A DNA stretch of 40,854 nt from Campylobacteraceae bacterium. GTDB taxonomy: Bacteria; Campylobacterota; Campylobacteria; Campylobacterales; Sulfurospirillaceae. The stretch is from contig JALUBH010000003.1 in the NCBI GenBank assembly GCA_027050775.1, positions 1 to 40,854 on the forward strand, written 5' to 3'. A model generated the notes under the pieces. That model did not search any database. It had not been told where the DNA came from and saw only the letters and a program-made list of their open reading frames with translations. Below, one piece after another: positions 21,281 to 30,615 of this stretch (position 1 is its first letter; each line of letters starts with the position of its first letter). The translations under genes and the position numbers were made by a program.

Positions 21281-21333
21281 CAAAAAGCATATTCAAGATA
21301 ATCTTGCATAAAGCAAACTTTAATGGGGCAATT

Positions 21334-21582
21334 ATGTTAAATTTTTTGATTTTACTTATAGCATTATCACTGCTTCTCGCATTGATTAGGTTTTTAAAAG
21401 GTCCGACTCTCGTAGATAGGGTTGTGGCTTTTGATTCGATGAGTATTATATCCACTTCACTACTGGTTGTTCTATCCTTCTACTTTCACAAAAGTCTCTA
21501 CCTTGATGTTGCATTTGTTTTTGGTTTAATAGGCTTTGTAGGTACTGTGGTATTTGCCAAATTTTTGGACAAGGAGTTTTAA
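21334..21582 (+). CDS. MrpF/MnhF-like antiporter subunit
   Basis: An 82-residue membrane protein with three hydrophobic helices and the MrpF signature RFLKGPTLVDRVVAFDSMS, followed by FGLIGFVGTVVFAKFL. In Mrp antiporters and in MBH/MBS complexes (where it is subunit B) it forms part of the cation-handling membrane module. The ATG at 21334 is preceded by GGGG. It is the first gene of the 13-gene cluster and is followed immediately by the MrpG-like gene, with TAATG shared between stop and start. Confidence 0.9.
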   Translation: MLNFLILLIALSLLLALIRFLKGPTLVDRVVAFDSMSIISTSLLVVLSFYFHKSLYLDVAFVFGLIGFVGTVVFAKFLDKEF

Positions 21583-21917
21583 TGCTGCTATTTTTAGGCT
21601 ATTTACTAGGACTTTTAGGAACTACATTGTTTTTCATAAGCGGTATTGGACTGCTTCGTATGCCAGATACTCTCACAAGAATGCAAGCTGCAACAAAAGC
21701 CTCAACCCTAGGTTCTCTTTTGGTTATTTTAGCAGTTGCTTGTTTTGAACCGCAATGGACATTTAAACTTGTCGTTTTGGCAGTATTTATACTCATAACA
21801 AACCCTATATCCTCTTCTGTGTTAGCGATGACCACATATAAAAGATTTTATAAAAATGTATACAACACAAGTGGTGCTGACGCATTTAGAGATGATTTAA
21901 AGAAGGAAGAAAAATGA
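21582..21917 (+). CDS. MrpG/MnhG-like antiporter subunit
   Basis: A 111-residue membrane protein with three helices and the MrpG motif GIGLLRMPDTLTRMQAATKA, followed by TLGSLLVI and ITNPISSSVLA. It corresponds to subunit C of MBH/MBS complexes. AAGGAG lies before its ATG, and it overlaps the next gene by four bases. The C-terminal tail is charged and cytoplasmic. Confidence 0.9.
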   Translation: MLLFLGYLLGLLGTTLFFISGIGLLRMPDTLTRMQAATKASTLGSLLVILAVACFEPQWTFKLVVLAVFILITNPISSSVLAMTTYKRFYKNVYNTSGADAFRDDLKKEEK

Positions 21918-22162
21918 TAGGATTACTCATACTCTTCACCTTTTTAGCAATTATTGTGGTGGCTCTTGGAGCAATATTAAGCAAAGATATAACTCAATCA
22001 GTCATGCTGTTTATGGGTGTTGGCCTAGGAAGTGTTGTGCTTTTCTTTATATTTCAAGCTCCTGATGTTGCATTGACTGAAGCAGTTATAGGCACGGGTC
22101 TAAGTACAGCTGTATTTTTACTTGGAATCAGACACACTTCGCAAGAGGAGGCAGAATCATGA
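21914..22162 (+). CDS. DUF4040/MrpB-like small subunit (MbhD-like)
   Basis: An 82-residue protein with three hydrophobic helices and the DUF4040 core VALGAILSKDITQSVMLF, then FIFQAPDVALTEAVIGTGLSTAVFL. The acidic and polar residues in APDVALTEA are conserved in the equivalent segment of MrpA and MbhD and are thought to lie on a proton or sodium path. It overlaps both neighbours by four bases. Confidence 0.85.
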   Translation: MIGLLILFTFLAIIVVALGAILSKDITQSVMLFMGVGLGSVVLFFIFQAPDVALTEAVIGTGLSTAVFLLGIRHTSQEEAES

Positions 22163-22887
22163 ACCTAAAAAAAGAGTTAAGACTTAAGCATATAATTCTT
22201 TCCTTACTCTCATCAGCCCTGCTTCTTTCTTTTCTTGGGCTTCTTATGCAGGTCAAGACAAATACATACAAAACAGTAGGTGATATATTTTTAAATCTAA
22301 ATATGCAAACTGCTACGGCAAATGCAGTGACATCTGTCGTTACATTTTTCAGGGGAATCGATACTGTTGGTGAAGTTACAGTGCTTTTTTTGGCAACATC
22401 CGGTGTAGCATTGATGCTTAGCTCAACTCAAAGAACCTCTAAAAAAGTAGTAAAACAAGAGAGTTTTGTACTACATGTAGGGAGTCGTTTACTAATGAGT
22501 GTGATTATACTCTTTGGTGTATATATCGTTATTCACGGACACCTAAGCCCAGGTGGTGGTTTTCAAGGCGGTGTTGTTATAGCCACTGCATTTTTGCTGC
22601 TATTTTTGGCAAACCCAAATATGTCTCTAAGTCACGGAATACTGACACTTGGCGAATCTCTGAGTGGCTCGGCTTATGTTTTGGTGGCTCTTATCGGGCT
22701 CTTTAAAATGAATATTTTACTTGGAAACTTTTTACCTCACCCAGTTGGTGAAATCGGAGAGTTAGTGAGTGGCGGTATCATACCTGTCATTTACATACTT
22801 GTCGGTATAAAAGTAGGAAGCGAAATGAGCGTTATCGTAGAGTATTTCATAAAAGAAGATTACTATAAAGAGGTGTATGATGCTTGA
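22159..22887 (+). CDS. MnhB-domain subunit, probable MbhE-MbhF fusion
   Basis: A 242-residue membrane protein with two parts. Residues 1-95 resemble the MbhE segment (related to the MrpA C-terminus), with FFRGIDTVGEVTVLFLATSGVALM. Residues 105-240 form the MnhB/MrpB domain, with YIVIHGHLSPGGGFQGGVV and HPVGEIGELVSGGIIPVIYILVGIKVGS. In archaeal MBH/MBS operons these are, as I recall, two genes, E and F. Here they appear fused in one frame. It overlaps the preceding gene by four bases and the following one by eight to eleven. Confidence 0.82.
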   Translation: MNLKKELRLKHIILSLLSSALLLSFLGLLMQVKTNTYKTVGDIFLNLNMQTATANAVTSVVTFFRGIDTVGEVTVLFLATSGVALMLSSTQRTSKKVVKQESFVLHVGSRLLMSVIILFGVYIVIHGHLSPGGGFQGGVVIATAFLLLFLANPNMSLSHGILTLGESLSGSAYVLVALIGLFKMNILLGNFLPHPVGEIGELVSGGIIPVIYILVGIKVGSEMSVIVEYFIKEDYYKEVYDA

Positions 22888-23257
22888 GTTTTTTAATGAC
22901 ACGCAAACCATACATTTTATCATCATAGTTGGCTCTATGTCCCTTTTTTTCATCGGATTTTATGGAATTGCTACACAAAAAAACTTGGTAAAAATTCTTG
23001 TCTCCTTTGACATAATGGAATCGGCCCTATTTCTATTTTTTATAGGGCTTCATTACAAAGTGGGATTAGTAGCTCCGATACTTGATAAACATCTAAAAAC
23101 ATTTACAAATATGGTGGATCCTGTTCCTCAGGCGATGATTCTTACAACCATCGTTATAGGACTTGCGGTTTTAGCACTCGGATTGTCATTTGGTATAGAG
23201 TATTATAAACTCACCGGCAGAAATGACATATCAAAGATGAATGAATTAAGGGATTGA
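22880..23257 (+). CDS. MrpC/NuoK-like subunit
   Basis: A 125-residue, three-helix membrane protein of the MnhC/NuoK family. It has GFYGIATQKNLVKILVSFDIMESALFLFFIG, with the glutamate in the second helix as in NuoK, and DPVPQAMILTTIVIGLAVLALGLS, the classic MrpC motif. It corresponds to MbhG/MbsG. Tandem ATGs at 22877 and 22880 follow AGAGG; either could be used. The next gene begins two bases after the stop. Confidence 0.9.
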   Translation: MLEFFNDTQTIHFIIIVGSMSLFFIGFYGIATQKNLVKILVSFDIMESALFLFFIGLHYKVGLVAPILDKHLKTFTNMVDPVPQAMILTTIVIGLAVLALGLSFGIEYYKLTGRNDISKMNELRD

Positions 23258-23258
23258 T

Positions 23259-24707
23259 ATGAGTTTAGGTTACTATTTTTTATTACCTGTAATTTTTTCA
23301 TTTTTAACCCCTTATTTTAAAAAAATAGGATTACTAAGAGCTAGTTCTATACTTCTAAACTTGCTCCTGTTTTTACAAACTTTAGTTTATACAATGATGT
23401 CTCTTCCACAAATTTCACTGTTTTCCATAAAGCCTCCTTTGGGAATTGCGTTTATATTAGATGGATACTCCTTACTCTTTTTACTGATATTTACATTTTC
23501 AGGTCTTATGGTATCTTTATATATGCCTTGGTTTTTTAAAGCAAACCCAAGAAGAGATGAAGCAAGGTTTTATCTGTTTTTCAACATGCTCATAGCCGGA
23601 AGTATCGGTATGATACTTAGTTGTGATATATTTAATCTATACATTTTCTTTGAAATTACCGGTATCTGCTCATACACTCTTTCGGCATACAACAAAGATA
23701 AACTAGGGCTTGAATCCGGCATAAAGTACCTCATCATCGGCTCGATTGCATCTATCTTTATAGTTTTTGCGATTATGCTTATATACTTGCAAATTGGAAC
23801 TGTAAACTTAGGTCTTATCGCACAAAGATTTCATCAGATTGATCCAAAAATCTCAGTTCTCATTGTCTTAATGCTCTTTATCGGATTTGGAACAAAAGCA
23901 GAACTTTTTCCGATGAACTTTTGGGCACCTGATATCTATCAAGGTAGCATATCACCTGTAAACGGACTCTTTAGTTCCGTCGTAGCAAAAGCTTATCTTT
24001 TTGTCTTTTTTCACCTTTTTTATCTATTTGGATTAAATTCAAAATATATGCTTTTCGTGATGGTCATAGGAGCTATTACTTTTCTTGTTTCCGAGTTTAC
24101 CGCACTAAACCAAACAAATGTCAAAAGGCTTTTTGCATACTCAACACTCGGGCAACTTGGTATTTTGTTTATGGCATTTAGCACAAACTCCATAGATACG
24201 GTCTCCGGCGCACTTTTTCATTTGACTAGCCACTCAATTTCAAAGCTATTGATATTTTTAACTTTAGGCATACTGATTCATAAATTAAAAAGCATGAAGA
24301 TAGATATTTTGGGCGGTTTTAAATCAACATTTTTAACAATTGTATTGGTTATCTCTTTCTTATCCGTACTTGGAATTCCACCATTTAGTGGGTTTATAGG
24401 AAAGATACTTATATTAAAAGGTTTTGCACTTTCGCACAATTATGCAGCTGTTGCATTTATACTTTTGGTATCCATCGTAGAAGCTATATACTTCTTTAGA
24501 ATTATAGCTATGATGCTTGATAAAAGTAGAGCCAAAGTGATAGTAAATGTCGGGGTTATGAATTATGCAATTCTTGCAGTTTTAGCAGCACTCATAGTGC
24601 TTTTTGGTATATATCCGTCACTTTTGCTTCACTATACTGATTTGGCGGCAAATGCGCTACTTCATCCGACTAATTATCTCACTTATGCACTAGGAGTAGG
24701 ACTATGA
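23259..24707 (+). CDS. Proton/cation-translocating antiporter subunit (MrpD/NuoM-like, H)
   Basis: A 482-residue protein with about 14 membrane helices. The antiporter motifs are present: a TM5 glutamate in YIFFEITGICSYTLSAY, the TM7 lysine in FIGFGTKAELFPMNFWAPDIYQ, and a discontinuous-helix region GIPPFSGFIGKILILKG near residue 370. A lysine follows in SHSISKLLIFLTLG. In MBH and MBS complexes the H subunit is the main ion-pumping channel. It overlaps the next antiporter gene by four bases. Confidence 0.9.
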   Translation: MSLGYYFLLPVIFSFLTPYFKKIGLLRASSILLNLLLFLQTLVYTMMSLPQISLFSIKPPLGIAFILDGYSLLFLLIFTFSGLMVSLYMPWFFKANPRRDEARFYLFFNMLIAGSIGMILSCDIFNLYIFFEITGICSYTLSAYNKDKLGLESGIKYLIIGSIASIFIVFAIMLIYLQIGTVNLGLIAQRFHQIDPKISVLIVLMLFIGFGTKAELFPMNFWAPDIYQGSISPVNGLFSSVVAKAYLFVFFHLFYLFGLNSKYMLFVMVIGAITFLVSEFTALNQTNVKRLFAYSTLGQLGILFMAFSTNSIDTVSGALFHLTSHSISKLLIFLTLGILIHKLKSMKIDILGGFKSTFLTIVLVISFLSVLGIPPFSGFIGKILILKGFALSHNYAAVAFILLVSIVEAIYFFRIIAMMLDKSRAKVIVNVGVMNYAILAVLAALIVLFGIYPSLLLHYTDLAANALLHPTNYLTYALGVGL

Positions 24708-26476
24708 ATTCAATATTTTTACTATTAAACTTACTGCCTATCCTGTTTTTGTACCAATTTGGGGGAGCTCTACATGTAGAGCTTAATTTTACATCAAGCT
24801 TTACGCTAAGCCTCATACAAACACCACTAGGTACATTCTTTGCATACTTGAGTATGATCTCATTTTTACTTGTTACGATAGCTCAGAAAAGCAAAAAATT
24901 CTCTTTTAGCTACTATATGTTACAACTTCTGCTCTCTTTAGCAATGTTTATGATAGTACTAGCCGGAGATTTTATCACATTTTTCATAGGTTGGGAGATT
25001 ATGACTTGGAGTAGTTATTTCATCATCTCAAAATCAAAAAATATAGATACAAAATCTCTGCAGAAATACATACTTTTTTCACTTGCATCAGCTTTTTCTT
25101 TGATAGCGGGCATGGTGATTGCTTACTCTTTTGCACACTCTTTTGATTTTTCTGTCATTTCAAGTGCATTTAGAGATATGCCATTTAATATACAAATTAC
25201 ACTTATCGTTCTATTTTCGCTCAGTTTTTTCACAAAAGCCGGTGTGATTGGATTGCACTATTGGGTAGTCGATACCTACTCAAAAGCACCTGATCTTTTT
25301 AGTTCTATTCTTTCAGCTGTTATGTCAAAGATGGGTATATACGGACTATTTTTGATATATGGCCACATCGTAGGATATCAAGAATTAAAGATGATGTTTG
25401 GAACAATATTGAACGGTACAAACTTCGGATACACTCTAGCATGGATAGGAGTTGCCACTTCAATCATAGCTACATTTAAAGCCATCACTCAAGATGAAGT
25501 CAAAAAGTTATTAGCTTACTCATCGATAGCACAACTAGGCTACATAATAACAGTTATAGGATTTGGAACAGCCTATGGTGTTGCGGGAGCCATGTATCAT
25601 ACACTTATACACACTATCATCAAACTGCTTCTATTTATAAATGTAGCGGCGATTGTAGCACAAACCGGTAAAAGTAAATTTAGCGAATTAGGTGGCTTGA
25701 TATATAGAACCCCTGTTTCATTTGTGATGCTTCTTATCGGTATTATAGGACTTGCCGGTATGCCTCCTCTTGGTGGTTTTGCCTCAAAATTTATGATGTA
25801 CAATGCTGCAATTGACACAAAATTTGCACTGATTCTTATAGGTATGCTCTTCTCGGGTGCAGCTTCATTTTTATACTGCTATAAACTTGTATACGGTATA
25901 TATCTAGGACATCCGACTTCAAAAAATTTAGAAACAACCAAAGAGGTACCGATCAGTTATTTGATTCCTCAAATCATACTTGCACTTTTACTTGTATTAA
26001 CCGGTGCGTTTCCAGGAGCATTTATCAAAGTTATCAACCCTGTATTAGTGGAATTTTCACTCTCAACCATACCTTATAGTGGGTTAGGCGTGATGAATAG
26101 TGCCGTCGGCAGTTTCAATGGACTTTTTATTATTAGTGCTTTTGTTGTATTTTTTGTACTGATACTTCTGCTCATCACAAGAATCAAATCAAAAGCCAAA
26201 AACAATCTAAACAGATTTGACATAAGCTATTGTGGCGAAGTACCTGCACAAGACACATCATTGCACTTTGGATTCGGATTCGGAGCTGATCTTCATAAAA
26301 TCAAATTTGCAAATGCTATACTAAAAAGGAGCTCATCCTCTTTTTATGAATCACTAGCAACACAAACCAAAAAAACATCTGAACTTTTCAGCAGGATGTA
26401 TTATGGAAATATTCATAATACCATGCTTATAATATTACTGTTTTTCAGTGCACTGTTTTTTATAGGAGTTAACTGA
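24704..26476 (+). CDS. Second antiporter-like subunit (NuoL-like, H')
   Basis: A 590-residue protein with about 15 membrane helices. The TM5 motif FFIGWEIMTWSSYFI holds the conserved glutamate. FFTKAGVIGLHYWVVDTYSKAPDLFSS carries the TM7 lysine. GIIGLAGMPPLGGFASKFMMYNA marks the broken-helix region. A C-terminal extension ends in one more helix, as in NuoL. Two antiporter subunits in tandem are typical of MBS/Mbx rather than MBH, which has one. The coding region contains the 18-base dispersed palindrome at 24766 (encoding part of GALHVELN). Confidence 0.9.
   Translation: MNSIFLLLNLLPILFLYQFGGALHVELNFTSSFTLSLIQTPLGTFFAYLSMISFLLVTIAQKSKKFSFSYYMLQLLLSLAMFMIVLAGDFITFFIGWEIMTWSSYFIISKSKNIDTKSLQKYILFSLASAFSLIAGMVIAYSFAHSFDFSVISSAFRDMPFNIQITLIVLFSLSFFTKAGVIGLHYWVVDTYSKAPDLFSSILSAVMSKMGIYGLFLIYGHIVGYQELKMMFGTILNGTNFGYTLAWIGVATSIIATFKAITQDEVKKLLAYSSIAQLGYIITVIGFGTAYGVAGAMYHTLIHTIIKLLLFINVAAIVAQTGKSKFSELGGLIYRTPVSFVMLLIGIIGLAGMPPLGGFASKFMMYNAAIDTKFALILIGMLFSGAASFLYCYKLVYGIYLGHPTSKNLETTKEVPISYLIPQIILALLLVLTGAFPGAFIKVINPVLVEFSLSTIPYSGLGVMNSAVGSFNGLFIISAFVVFFVLILLLITRIKSKAKNNLNRFDISYCGEVPAQDTSLHFGFGFGADLHKIKFANAILKRSSSSFYESLATQTKKTSELFSRMYYGNIHNTMLIILLFFSALFFIGVN
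24766..24783. repeat. Dispersed palindrome AGCTCTACATGTAGAGCT within a gene
   Basis: An identical copy of the 18-base perfect palindrome found at 14568 lies in frame inside the NuoL-like gene, just after its first helix. It sits at a tolerated periplasmic or loop position in the protein. Confidence 0.7.
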
Positions 26477-27369
26477 TGATTTTTCAAATTATTTTACTTA
26501 TTATGCTCGCGTATGTGGTCGGTTTTATCTATTTTGGTCTATATAGAAATATAACAGCTAGAATTCAAAGTAGATATGGTCCGAGCGTGTATCAGTCATT
26601 TTATGACAGTATAAAACTGTTTTCCAAAAAAAATACGGTCAATTTTGGCTGGATGTTTTATCTAGGACCTGTGATTATGGCAACCGGTGCTATTTTGACA
26701 CTTGTCTTAATCCCTATTTTTAGTGACAGCGATTTTCTAAGGAGTGTAACTAGTCAAGGAAATTTATTTGTATTGCTTTACTTGATGGTACTTGGACCTC
26801 TTGGAAATGCGCTTGCAGTTGGAACAGGCGGCAATCCTTTCGGAGTTATGGGAGTAGTGAGGGGTTTGACTAGACTCATCGGTTTGGAATTGCCATTTTA
26901 TATAGCAGTTGTCGGTTTAATCATAGCTGCAAACAGCAGTGATATAGTGCACATCATAGATCTTCAAAAAACAACCGGATTAAACATCATCAACCACCCT
27001 CTTCTTTTCATAGGTGCTATGATATCCATGGTTGGTTTCTTTGGAGAATCACCATTTGATATTCCTGGTGCTCCACAAGAGGTATATTCCGGGCCAAGAA
27101 CTGAGTTTAGCGGTAAATTTTTGGCACTTCTTATGAGTCAAGGTTCGCTCTTTGCATTTGCAAAGCTTGTTTTGATAGTTGATCTGTTTTTAGGTGGAGC
27201 TGATTCGTTAGAGATGCTGATTTTAAAAACTTTTGCTATATTTGTTACAATTATCTTTATAGGTGTCGTATATGGAAGATATAAGGTTGAACAAGCAGTT
27301 GACTTTTTGATGAAATTGCCCACGCTAATAGCCGTCTTAGGACTTGCTAGAGTCGTTTGGTTTGGATAA
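26476..27369 (+). CDS. NuoH/HyfC-like membrane subunit (M)
   Basis: A 297-residue membrane protein with about eight helices that anchors the peripheral redox arm. The family motifs are intact: ARIQSRYGPSVYQSFYDSIK, GGNPFGVMGVVRGLTRLIGLELPFYI, and ESPFDIPGAPQEVYSGPRTEFSGK, which carry the charged residues of the quinone-cavity/E-channel region in complex I and its counterparts in MBH. The stop and start codons of neighbours overlap (TGATG), so it is tightly coupled to the antiporter gene before it. Confidence 0.9.
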   Translation: MIFQIILLIMLAYVVGFIYFGLYRNITARIQSRYGPSVYQSFYDSIKLFSKKNTVNFGWMFYLGPVIMATGAILTLVLIPIFSDSDFLRSVTSQGNLFVLLYLMVLGPLGNALAVGTGGNPFGVMGVVRGLTRLIGLELPFYIAVVGLIIAANSSDIVHIIDLQKTTGLNIINHPLLFIGAMISMVGFFGESPFDIPGAPQEVYSGPRTEFSGKFLALLMSQGSLFAFAKLVLIVDLFLGGADSLEMLILKTFAIFVTIIFIGVVYGRYKVEQAVDFLMKLPTLIAVLGLARVVWFG

Positions 27370-27379
27370 GGGAGAAAAA

Positions 27380-28015
27380 ATGGAAAGTGGTTTTTACGGC
27401 AGCAGTTTAGATGATAGCTTGAAATGTAAATTTGAAGAGAGCGGCTTAGAAAATACTCACAAAATAATGGAAAAAGCTGTTAATTGGTTTAGAAGCAGGA
27501 GCATCTTTGTCGTAGCTTATGGAACAGGGTGTGGGGCTATCGAAATGCCCCCAACATTTACAAGTAGATATGATGCCGAGAGGATGGGAGTCATAGGGGT
27601 GGCAACACCTAGACAGGCTGATTTGATCATCTTATCCGGTTACTTGGCATACAAAACATTAAGAAGAGTTATAAGAACTTATGAACAGATGCAAAGACCA
27701 AGATACATAATGACTCTTGGCAGCTGCCCGATAAACGGTGGAATGTATTGGGATTCCTACAATACTATTAAAAAACTTGACGATTATATACCTGTGGATG
27801 TAGCGGTTACTGGTTGCATGCCAAGACCTGAAGCTGTTATAGACGGCTTTGTTCTCCTTCAAAAAAGAATCAAAAATGGCGAAAAAGCCGGATGGGAAAA
27901 GTATGATGAAAATTTTGAATTTTACAAGGATAACCAAAAAAGAGTTCTAGGAGGTCATATTGACCCATCTTACGAAACTGACTGGTACAATCTCAAAAGC
28001 GGGGGTAAGGCATAA
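27380..28015 (+). CDS. NuoB-like small subunit (J) with altered cluster motif
   Basis: A 211-residue peripheral subunit carrying the proximal [4Fe-4S] cluster. The motif reads YGTGCGAIEMPP, where complex I has a tandem CC. The later ligands are present in GSCPINGGMYWDSY and VTGCMPRPEAVIDG. Only three of the four usual cysteines are therefore in place; a fourth ligand might be C16 near the N-terminus or a non-cysteine residue. The start at 27380 has AAGGGAG upstream, so a longer frame beginning at 27344 inside the preceding gene is rejected. Confidence 0.88.
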   Translation: MESGFYGSSLDDSLKCKFEESGLENTHKIMEKAVNWFRSRSIFVVAYGTGCGAIEMPPTFTSRYDAERMGVIGVATPRQADLIILSGYLAYKTLRRVIRTYEQMQRPRYIMTLGSCPINGGMYWDSYNTIKKLDDYIPVDVAVTGCMPRPEAVIDGFVLLQKRIKNGEKAGWEKYDENFEFYKDNQKRVLGGHIDPSYETDWYNLKSGGKA

Positions 28016-28623
28016 TGGACTTAGCATCTAAATTAGAGAGATTATCACTTGAACTTGTACAAAAACAAGATTATCTCTATAAAGTTACTGTAAATTTAGA
28101 ACGACTCGAATCACTTTTACTCAGTTTTTTAAATGAGTTCGGATATATCACGCTTGATTCTATAAATTGCAGAGATGACTTAGAAGATGGATTTTTTACT
28201 ATTACATATTGTCTCCAAACAAAAAAGAGAGATCATATAGTTATGGTTCAAACAAAAATACAAAGAGAAAATGCTAGTTTGCCCACCATGCACACGATTT
28301 GGCCTCAGGCTGAGATAATGGAAAGAGAGATGCATGAGATGTTTGGTGTTGATTTTCCCGGACATCCGACGCTCATCGATTTTGCCTTGGAGTATTGGGA
28401 CAATATGCCTCCTCTAAGAAGAGACTTTGATACTTTAGAGTATGTAAACAGTATGAATCCTTTCCGAAAACAAAGAGGTGACGCTCTTGATGCAAAAGAG
28501 GAGATGAAAAAGAAAAGAGAGGCAAAAAAAGCTGCAAAACTAAAAGCAGAGAAAGAAGCCCAAACAAAAGCGGCACTAGAAGCACAAAACAATCCAAGCG
28601 ATGAGGTGAAAGATGAAGAATAA
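28015..28623 (+). CDS. NuoC-like 30-kDa subunit (K)
   Basis: A 202-residue soluble subunit with the complex-I 30-kDa signature MEREMHEMFGVDFPGHPTLIDF, followed by NMPPLRRDFDT. The C-terminal 50 residues are an Ala/Lys/Glu-rich helix that is longer than usual and may pack against a neighbour. It would dock the NuoD-like subunit on the J subunit. TAATG links it to the upstream gene, and it overlaps the NuoD-like gene by 11 bases. Confidence 0.9.
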   Translation: MDLASKLERLSLELVQKQDYLYKVTVNLERLESLLLSFLNEFGYITLDSINCRDDLEDGFFTITYCLQTKKRDHIVMVQTKIQRENASLPTMHTIWPQAEIMEREMHEMFGVDFPGHPTLIDFALEYWDNMPPLRRDFDTLEYVNSMNPFRKQRGDALDAKEEMKKKREAKKAAKLKAEKEAQTKAALEAQNNPSDEVKDEE

Positions 28624-29728
28624 TCTAGAAAATACTATCAAGATATTTCATGGACCTCAACATCCCGGAATCACAGGAAACATGAGCGTAGAGCTTGATC
28701 TGCTTGGTGAAACCATAAAAAGAGCTCAAACACATGTCGGATATCTTCATAGAGGATTTGAAAAGCTCATAGAAAGGCGAACTGTTGTGCAAGCCTTTAC
28801 TATCGTTTGCAGAATCTGTGTACCTGAGCCTGACCCAAACGAAGAAAATTTTGCAAGAGCAGTTGAAAATCTCACAGGGCTTGAAATCAGCGAAAAAGCT
28901 AAATATATAAGAACAATGGTCTTAGAGATGCAAAGGCTAGCGACTATGTTTTTGTGGATGGGTGGACAAGCAGGTTCCATAGGTCTTGGACTCATACCCC
29001 AATGGTCAGTTTGCGATAGGGACTATATGTTGGATAGATTTGAAGAATTGACAGGTGGTAGAGTTTATCACATGTACGCTTTTCCCGGTGGCGTAAGAAG
29101 AGATTTGCCTGAAGGCTTTTTGGAACGATTGTCTGATCTTCTTGATTATTATGAAAAAAGAATCATCGTCTATAATAATACTTTTTTTGATAATGTTATC
29201 TTTAGAAAAAGAGCTATCGGAGTTGGTGTAGTAAATAGAGATGATGTCTTGAAAAATGCCTATGTAGGGCAAACCATGAGGGGATGCGGCATAAAAAAAG
29301 ATGTCAGAAAAGATATGCCATACTTGATGTATGACAAGCTGGATTTTGACATACCGATTCAACAAGATGGCGATGTTTACGCAAGAGCAATCGTCAGAAG
29401 AGATGAGATGCTTCAATCCATCAGAATATTAAGACAAATCATAAAACAGATGCCTAAAGAGGGTGAGATTTTACAAAAGATTCCAAAGCATAGAAAATTC
29501 AAACTTCCCTCAGATGACACCTATGTACAGACAGAAAGCGCAAGAGGTGCTATGAGTTACTATATGGCGGGTGATGGGAGCGAAAAGATTAGAAGAATGC
29601 AAGTAAGAGGACCTTCATTGGTGCATGCGTACACTCTACTTGAAAAACTATTGGTCAATACCGAACTTGCAGATGTTGCTATGACTATGAATTCGTTGGG
29701 TATTTGCCCACCAGAAATAGAAAGATAA
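28613..29728 (+). CDS. NuoD/[NiFe]-hydrogenase-like large subunit (L) lacking paired Ni ligands
   Basis: A 371-residue catalytic-type subunit. The family is clear from IFHGPQHPGITGNMSVELDL at the start, HVGYLHRGFEKLIERR, and MQVRGPSLVHAYTLLEKLL near the end. In group 4 [NiFe] hydrogenases the N- and C-terminal CxxC pairs bind nickel. Here the first reads C69-V-P-E72 (with a nearby C66) and the second C365-P-P-E368, so only the first cysteine of each pair remains. A [NiFe] site is therefore unlikely. Mbx/MBS-type L subunits are known to have lost two of the four cysteines. GAGGTGA lies before its ATG. Confidence 0.88.
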   Translation: MKNNLENTIKIFHGPQHPGITGNMSVELDLLGETIKRAQTHVGYLHRGFEKLIERRTVVQAFTIVCRICVPEPDPNEENFARAVENLTGLEISEKAKYIRTMVLEMQRLATMFLWMGGQAGSIGLGLIPQWSVCDRDYMLDRFEELTGGRVYHMYAFPGGVRRDLPEGFLERLSDLLDYYEKRIIVYNNTFFDNVIFRKRAIGVGVVNRDDVLKNAYVGQTMRGCGIKKDVRKDMPYLMYDKLDFDIPIQQDGDVYARAIVRRDEMLQSIRILRQIIKQMPKEGEILQKIPKHRKFKLPSDDTYVQTESARGAMSYYMAGDGSEKIRRMQVRGPSLVHAYTLLEKLLVNTELADVAMTMNSLGICPPEIER

Positions 29729-29737
29729 GGGGAGATT

Positions 29738-30148
29738 ATGGCTATAGATATAAAAGGTGTTTTATCACCATTAAGCGCTATAGGAACTCTTTTTGAACAT
29801 CCTAAAACGCTTACTTATCCTCAAGCTAAAAAGGATATTCCTGTTGGATATAGAGGTTTTCACATAAATAACTTAGAAACTTGTATTGGGTGTGCTAGCT
29901 GTGAAGAGATATGTATGAATGAAGCCATCGATATGATTCATCCTGATATTGAATATAACCCAAAAAATACAAGTGGTTGTGTTCCGAGAATCGACTACGG
30001 TAGATGCTGCTGGTGTTCACTTTGTACTGATGTATGCCCTCCTAGCTCACTCAAGCTTGACAATATTTGCACTCACGCAGAGTGTGACCCTGACAATTTC
30101 CTCTATATGCCTAAAAATATTAAAAACATAGGGGAGGATGTATCATGA
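29738..30148 (+). CDS. NuoI-like 2x[4Fe-4S] ferredoxin subunit (N)
   Basis: A 136-residue protein with two ferredoxin-type cluster motifs: CIGCASCEEIC (about residues 49-59) and CCWCSLCTDVCP (about 91-102). Each gives a full CxxCxxCxxxC set. It would pass electrons from ferredoxin or another donor to the J subunit. AAGGGGAG precedes the ATG, nine bases after the NuoD-like stop, and it overlaps the MrpE-like gene by four bases. Confidence 0.92.
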   Translation: MAIDIKGVLSPLSAIGTLFEHPKTLTYPQAKKDIPVGYRGFHINNLETCIGCASCEEICMNEAIDMIHPDIEYNPKNTSGCVPRIDYGRCCWCSLCTDVCPPSSLKLDNICTHAECDPDNFLYMPKNIKNIGEDVS

Positions 30149-30615
30149 GGTTTGTATTTTGGACCGTTTTTCTGTTTATAATCTGGGTTGGACTAACCAT
30201 GAGTTTTAGTACTCAAGAACTTACAACAGGCTTCTTTGTTTCTTTTATCATCGCGATGCTATATGTGAAATATTATCCAACTAATCATAATTTTAAATTT
30301 AGGCCGATAGCATATATCATATACTTATTTACATTTTTAAAAGCCCTGGTTTTAGCAAACTGGGATGTAGCTAGAAGAGTTATAGACCCTAAACTACCCA
30401 TAAATCCAGGAATTGTTGCCATAAAAACCGATTTAAAAGAAGACTATAAAAAACTGATGTTGGCAAATAGCATAACCTTGACTCCAGGAACCATAACCAT
30501 GGATGTGCGAGATGATACTCTTTTTATACACTGGATAGATGTCACAGCTACAAGTATAGAAGAGGCGAGCGAAGTAATTGCAGGAGATTTTGAGCGAACA
30601 CTAAAAAATTTATAA
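30145..30615 (+). CDS. MrpE/MnhE-like subunit (A)
   Basis: A 156-residue protein with two or three N-terminal helices and a cytoplasmic C-terminal domain. The MrpE signature is seen in NPGIVAIKTDLKEDYKKLMLANSITLTPGTITMDV and in DTLFIHWIDV. It corresponds to subunit A of MBH and MBS, which as I recall is usually first in archaeal operons but is last here. A strong hairpin terminator follows within 35 bases, closing the 13-gene transcript. Confidence 0.9.
   Translation: MRFVFWTVFLFIIWVGLTMSFSTQELTTGFFVSFIIAMLYVKYYPTNHNFKFRPIAYIIYLFTFLKALVLANWDVARRVIDPKLPINPGIVAIKTDLKEDYKKLMLANSITLTPGTITMDVRDDTLFIHWIDVTATSIEEASEVIAGDFERTLKNL

Follow-up and report, generated by a model that had tools for sequence, protein, structure and literature searches.

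The window, that is the whole stretch of 40,854 nucleotides analysed here, contains 13 open reading frames on the forward strand at positions 21304-30615, each overlapping its neighbour or separated from it by no more than about 10 bases, and Pfam and NCBIfam families could be assigned to all of them. The first is an MrpF-like subunit (21304..21582; PF04066, E = 6e-18), whose frame opens with TTG at 21304 and for which the ATG at 21334 is the likely start. It is followed by an MrpG-like subunit (21582..21917; PF03334, E = 8e-23, with NF009314 over its cut-off), an MbsD/MbhD-like subunit (21914..22162; PF13244 MbhD, E = 2e-20), an MbsE-like protein that joins an MbhE-type N-terminal part (PF20501, E = 2e-05, below its cut-off) to an MnhB domain (22159..22887; PF04039, E = 1e-21), and the MrpC/NuoK-like subunit MbsG (22877..23257; Oxidored_q2, PF00420, E = 1e-22). 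Two antiporter subunits of the Proton_antipo_M family, MbsH (23259..24707) and MbsH' (24704..26476), precede the NuoH-like membrane anchor MbsM (26476..27369; NADHdh, PF00146) and the NuoB-like proximal-cluster subunit MbsJ (27344..28015; Oxidored_q6); for the latter an ATG at 27380 is a likelier start than the TTG at 27344, from which its residues are numbered here. The remaining genes encode MbsK (NuoC-like, Complex1_30kDa; 28015..28623; PF00329, E = 3e-22), MbsL (NuoD-like, Complex1_49kDa; 28613..29728), MbsN, a NuoI-like ferredoxin with two [4Fe-4S] clusters (29738..30148) that stands alone, without an NAD(P)H domain, in the length survey, and finally the MrpE-like MbsA (MNHE; 30145..30615; PF01899, E = 2.5e-40).

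The membrane arm is of the full Mrp type and includes both antiporter subunits (MbsH and MbsH'); M and the J, K, L and N subunits complete the set. The 13 contiguous genes of the preliminary description (an Mrp module, two antiporters, and H-, B-, C-, D- and I-like subunits) were all recovered with their families, and it was also right that no NADH-input gene and no hydrogenase maturation (hyp) gene is seen within the 40.8 kb. The genes flanking the operon are unrelated to it and differ in most relatives. As the same genes recur in the same order in relatives, the operon itself is not a chance arrangement. A promoter scan gave a signal no better than that of shuffled sequences.

Six subunits (L, J, M, N, H and H') were compared with solved structures, and each has the membrane-bound complex MBS of Pyrococcus furiosus (6u8y) as its best match. 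The antiporter genes correspond one-to-one to those of this complex, the first to MbsH (238 bits to 6u8y_H against 151 for MBH) and the second to MbsH' (235 bits to 6u8y_X against 142 for MBH), and the margins are similarly in favour of MBS for M (6u8y_M, 144 bits vs. 76 for MBH), J (6u8y_J, 221 bits vs. 125 for NDH and 99 for MBH) and L (301 bits to 6u8y_L, where the best complex I chain reaches 208 and MBH 135); for N, too, the top PDB match is the MBS chain, 6u8y_N. An AlphaFold model of J (m3978586c18f1; mean pLDDT 77) likewise has 6u8y_J as its clear best match, whereas for the model of L (pLDDT 91) the fits to MBS and to complex I are equally good, and the fold search does not discriminate between them. 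This is expected, as the L-type subunits of MBS and complex I share one fold.

For the L subunit the trees do discriminate. In a careful maximum-likelihood tree L belongs to a 32-row MBS clade (support 100/99) which has Nuo as its sister, and MBH, HycE and the three Ehr-like proteins of the host genome fall outside that clade. A quick tree of 93 rows agrees on this placement; long branches in the L tree limit the deep order, not clade membership. This is the tree of the D-like subunit that had been suggested as a check, and in it the window's L groups outside Nuo, outside MBH/FHL and outside the host's Ehr-like proteins. The alternative label 'Ehr-type' can be dropped, as the D subunits of the three Ehr-like loci fall with HycE, far from L.

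An MBS differs from its relatives in that its proximal cluster receives no more than three ligands from J and L keeps one Cys per NiFe motif, while the quinone-site His and Tyr of Nqo4 and the Glu of MBH are absent from L (PMC7684303). In J, the cluster residues C63, C128 and C158 are invariant in all rows of the Cys survey that have letters there, and the position adjoining C63, which Nuo fills with a Cys, holds a Gly in 73 of the 73 rows with letters; the window reads C63-G64 and lacks the tandem CC of Nuo. L retains C69 and C365, one Cys per NiFe CxxC, and has E72 and E368 in place of their partners (16/16 clade rows surveyed). The alignment hence bears out the earlier remark that paired Ni ligands were lost, as two of the four Cys are kept where a group 4 NiFe hydrogenase (MBH/Ech) needs all four. 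At the sites of Nqo4 His38 and Tyr87, L has T21 and V70, and E21 of MbhL is also absent, both in the window and in all clade rows. The preference for MBS/Mbx over MBH or complex I is firmly upheld by these residues as well as by the structure matches and the L tree, and on this evidence the region 21304-30615 is, as far as its sequence can tell, one that encodes a complete MBS (Mbx)-type complex.

L contains an extra Cys, C66, which is present in 16/16 clade rows and in 54 of the 67 other bacterial rows, and is a Leu in P. furiosus. It lies three residues before the retained Ni-ligand Cys (C66-C69, window positions 28808-28819). I considered the motif VCRIC as a kept hydrogenase CxxC, with three of the four Ni ligands, and rejected it; in the full alignment C69 alone occupies a Ni-ligand position, C66 aligns with a hydrogenase Glu, and the true partner of C69 is E72. 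Cys66 might donate to the proximal cluster of J.

Among the charged-axis residues of the pump modules, the residue map finds five of five kept in H' (E98, K178, K209, H299 and K362 are conserved), four of five in H (E132, K244, H321 and K382, with E219 replaced by Lys) and three of five in M. That most of these residues are kept speaks for the reading of the complex that I favour below; the acidic residues lost from MbsM (E104 is V105 and E193 is S192 in the window) count against it.

The window and P. furiosus MBS thus share an identical inventory of 13 subunits, two separate antiporter genes, the three-Cys proximal cluster pattern, one Cys per NiFe motif and a stand-alone N. They differ in that the window's L is about 40% identical to its counterpart, its MrpE gene is the last of the operon, the non-ligand Cys25 of P. 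furiosus MbsJ is a Gly, L carries the conserved Cys66, the two acidic residues of MbsM are changed, and the host is a bacterium (G+C of the window 34%).

A genome scan confirmed at least 565 relatives, and the 80 loci retained from these all have bacterial titles; bacterial carriers of MBS relatives number in the hundreds. The kept MBS-type loci show two architectures. The window's type, here class I, keeps its 13 genes separate, encodes a short N (about 130-160 amino acids) and ends with MrpE, although gene-order detail is partial on short contigs. Its hosts, mostly sulfur oxidisers, are Campylobacterota, Chromatiaceae (Thiocystis, Thiorhodococcus and Chromatium okenii) and one member of the Spirochaetales, and its members in the careful L tree form a clade of their own (support 100/100). 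C. okenii was omitted from the trees as its L is split: in the public contig of strain LaCa the gene (L061:2435-3537) consists of two overlapping frames, which is either a sequencing error or a real break. The remaining bacterial relatives (Bacteroidota, Cloacimonadota, Spirochaetota and others) share the L and J motifs and the subunit set, but mostly have MrpE first, often have H and H' fused, and carry an N of about 590-760 amino acids fused to Fer4_20 and Pyr_redox_2, a GltD/NfnB-like flavin/NAD(P)H domain. Behind the operons L033-L100 there is often a gene for a rubrerythrin-like, DHO_dh-like or CBS-domain protein.

The preliminary description had likened the locus to the archaeal complex. 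That holds for the best PDB match, which is P. furiosus MBS, but the closest kin of the window's L are bacterial; because P. furiosus MbsL is itself nested among bacterial sequences, 'archaeal-like' denotes the best solved structure and not the origin. An MBS L occurs in only 5 of 397 Campylobacterota genomes and 3 of 68 genera. This scatter, together with the sister group in the Chromatiaceae, suggests that MBS in Campylobacterota may have been acquired or passed on by transfer, in either direction. Bacterial MBS has already been published, and what is distinctive here is a clade with a testable role; among the open-licence papers that could be searched, none was found to describe MBS in either Campylobacterota or Chromatiaceae.

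The host genome (G000, 2.19 Mb) encodes six complex-I-family D subunits, namely those of MBS, two Nuo complexes, of which one has NuoF, and three Ehr-like complexes. The five further complexes are found at L009, L010, L011 and L012 (contigs C27, C20 and C28), and an amino-acid permease gene adjoins the Ehr-like pair on C27 (L012:5750-7150). A search of the genome for hyp genes and other hydrogenases had also been proposed: the genome does encode HypD and two NiFe hydrogenases, one of them of group 1 type, but on contig C8 and not on the window's contig. SoxB and PFK are encoded as well, as are ferredoxin-dependent 2-oxoacid oxidoreductases and proteins of the NrfD family, which are possible polysulfide reductases.

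The genes next to the MBS copy in the window belong to neither sulfur nor sugar metabolism. In the Sulfurovaceae, copies L018 and L019 adjoin Pgi, PFK, pyruvate kinase and GH57, i.e. glycolysis/glycogen genes, and copy L027 adjoins G6PDH and 6PGL. PFK is found in 4 of 5 MBS carriers and in 101 of 392 non-carriers (Fisher p = 0.019, with kinship ignored and the five carriers not independent). The close relative G061, a complete genome, lacks PFK; there, after a short gap behind the operon (L017:13264-18697), lie an acyl-CoA synthetase gene and methylcitrate-cycle genes (lyase, citrate synthase family and PrpD family). An association with NifJ-type pyruvate:ferredoxin oxidoreductase was dropped, as NifJ is found in 178 of the 397 genomes and in every listed genome of the window's family.

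The reading that I favour, and consider moderately probable as a whole, is that of a complete MBS which would pass electrons from ferredoxin or flavodoxin to polysulfide with export of H+ or Na+, and which would serve as a fermentative or dark electron sink. The sequence shows gene content, orthology, site residues and clade, whereas donor, substrate, direction and ion are inferred by homology to P. furiosus MBS. Reduced ferredoxin or flavodoxin would dock at the small NuoI-like N subunit, from which electrons would run over two [4Fe-4S] clusters to the proximal [4Fe-4S] cluster of J; with only three Cys ligands, the open iron of this cluster could bind polysulfide or other sulfane sulfur and split the S-S bond. 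M and H' would relay the energy to two H+ pumps of the antiporter type and to a distal Na+/H+ module that exports ions. In this lineage the complex would most likely act as a fermentative or anoxic sink for ferredoxin reduced in pyruvate oxidation, the acceptor being sulfur from storage or from the environment. The link between ferredoxin, sulfur and ion pumping put forward earlier is plausible.

My preference for this direction stems from the homologues studied, all of which are linked to sulfur reduction. For P. furiosus MBS the evidence is biochemical (PMC7684303), mbxA of Thermotoga maritima is induced by S0 (PMC9431562), and 10 of the 13 MBS genes of strain 3DAC respond to S0 (PMC10356935); these latter two are bacterial complexes of the same family from fermentative thermophiles, likened to the window by family. 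The sugar-catabolism genes beside the Sulfurovaceae copies and the higher share of PFK among the carriers also speak for this reading. For C. okenii, which carries an MBS copy (L061), the genome paper considers it possible that glycogen is oxidised to PHB while stored sulfur takes up the electrons (PMC6374484). Several observations count against sulfur reduction as the role in the host, namely that SoxB and NrfD-family proteins are already there, that no sulfur or sugar genes adjoin the window's copy, that G061 has its MBS beside methylcitrate-cycle genes and no PFK, and that no match to NSR, as a partner, exceeded its cut-off.

Alternatively, the complex could run in reverse, an ion gradient driving electrons from sulfide or persulfide to ferredoxin for CO2 fixation by the rTCA cycle or for N2 fixation. 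The clade occurs mostly in sulfur-oxidising lithotrophs of the Campylobacterota and Chromatiaceae, its carriers possess ferredoxin-dependent 2-oxoacid oxidoreductases, the rTCA cycle needs ferredoxin, and for a vent relative it has been proposed that group 4 enzymes use the proton motive force to reduce ferredoxin (PMC2628731). However, all studied homologues reduce or respond to sulfur, two copies adjoin glycolysis genes, and, since 5 of 397 Campylobacterota genomes carry the complex, rTCA ferredoxin can in general be made without it, so that I regard the reverse direction as unlikely, if worth keeping in mind. The sharper version, in which the MBS clade of sulfur lithotrophs is a gradient-driven ferredoxin reductase fed by sulfide or persulfide with the CxxC of L (C66-C69) at the substrate site, seems to me distinctly unlikely.

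It is also quite unlikely that sulfur is not the substrate and that the electrons go to another acceptor, for example NAD(P)+, a bound quinone or some organic disulfide. Mbx was formerly viewed as a ferredoxin:NADP+ oxidoreductase (PMC6349859), and the fold of L alone cannot tell MBS from complex I. The fusion of N to an NAD(P)H domain in most other bacterial MBS operons even suggests a widespread NAD(P)H-linked MBS, but the window's clade lacks that domain, its L has, like that of MBS, neither the His nor the Tyr of the quinone site, and the three-Cys cluster pattern matches the sulfane-reducing site.

That the locus is an Ehr complex or a divergent complex I is very improbable. These complexes belong to the same superfamily, Ehr shares the lack of a NiFe site, and the host has two Nuo and three Ehr-like loci of its own; used as references, the latter led me to reject the Ehr identity, as the D subunits of the Nuo and Ehr-like loci group elsewhere with strong support and lack the motifs RICVPEPD and CPPEI, those of the Ehr-like loci lacking all four Ni Cys as well. 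An ordinary NiFe hydrogenase of the MBH or Ech type, for which a weak, sub-threshold match to NiFeSe_Hases and the hyp genes in the genome could be cited, has a negligible chance of being right and was rejected on the Cys pattern and the tree, since two of the four Ni ligands are replaced in every clade member surveyed, L lies outside MBH and HycE, and C. okenii has an MBS copy with no hydrogenases found in its genome paper (PMC6374484).

If the favoured reading of forward sulfur reduction is true, a respiratory system of hyperthermophiles would extend to sulfur-oxidising vent bacteria and purple sulfur bacteria, and the clade would add enzymes from non-hyperthermophiles that represent the stage linking MBH with complex I. 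The complex would be a candidate for a step not yet assigned, energy saving in anoxia or darkness by cells that hold sulfur and glycogen, the sulfur being returned to sulfide, and the cultured carriers Thiocystis minor and Thiorhodococcus mannitoliphagus make this role testable. A vent-type sulfur bacterium and some purple sulfur bacteria may thus save energy by passing ferredoxin electrons to stored sulfur.
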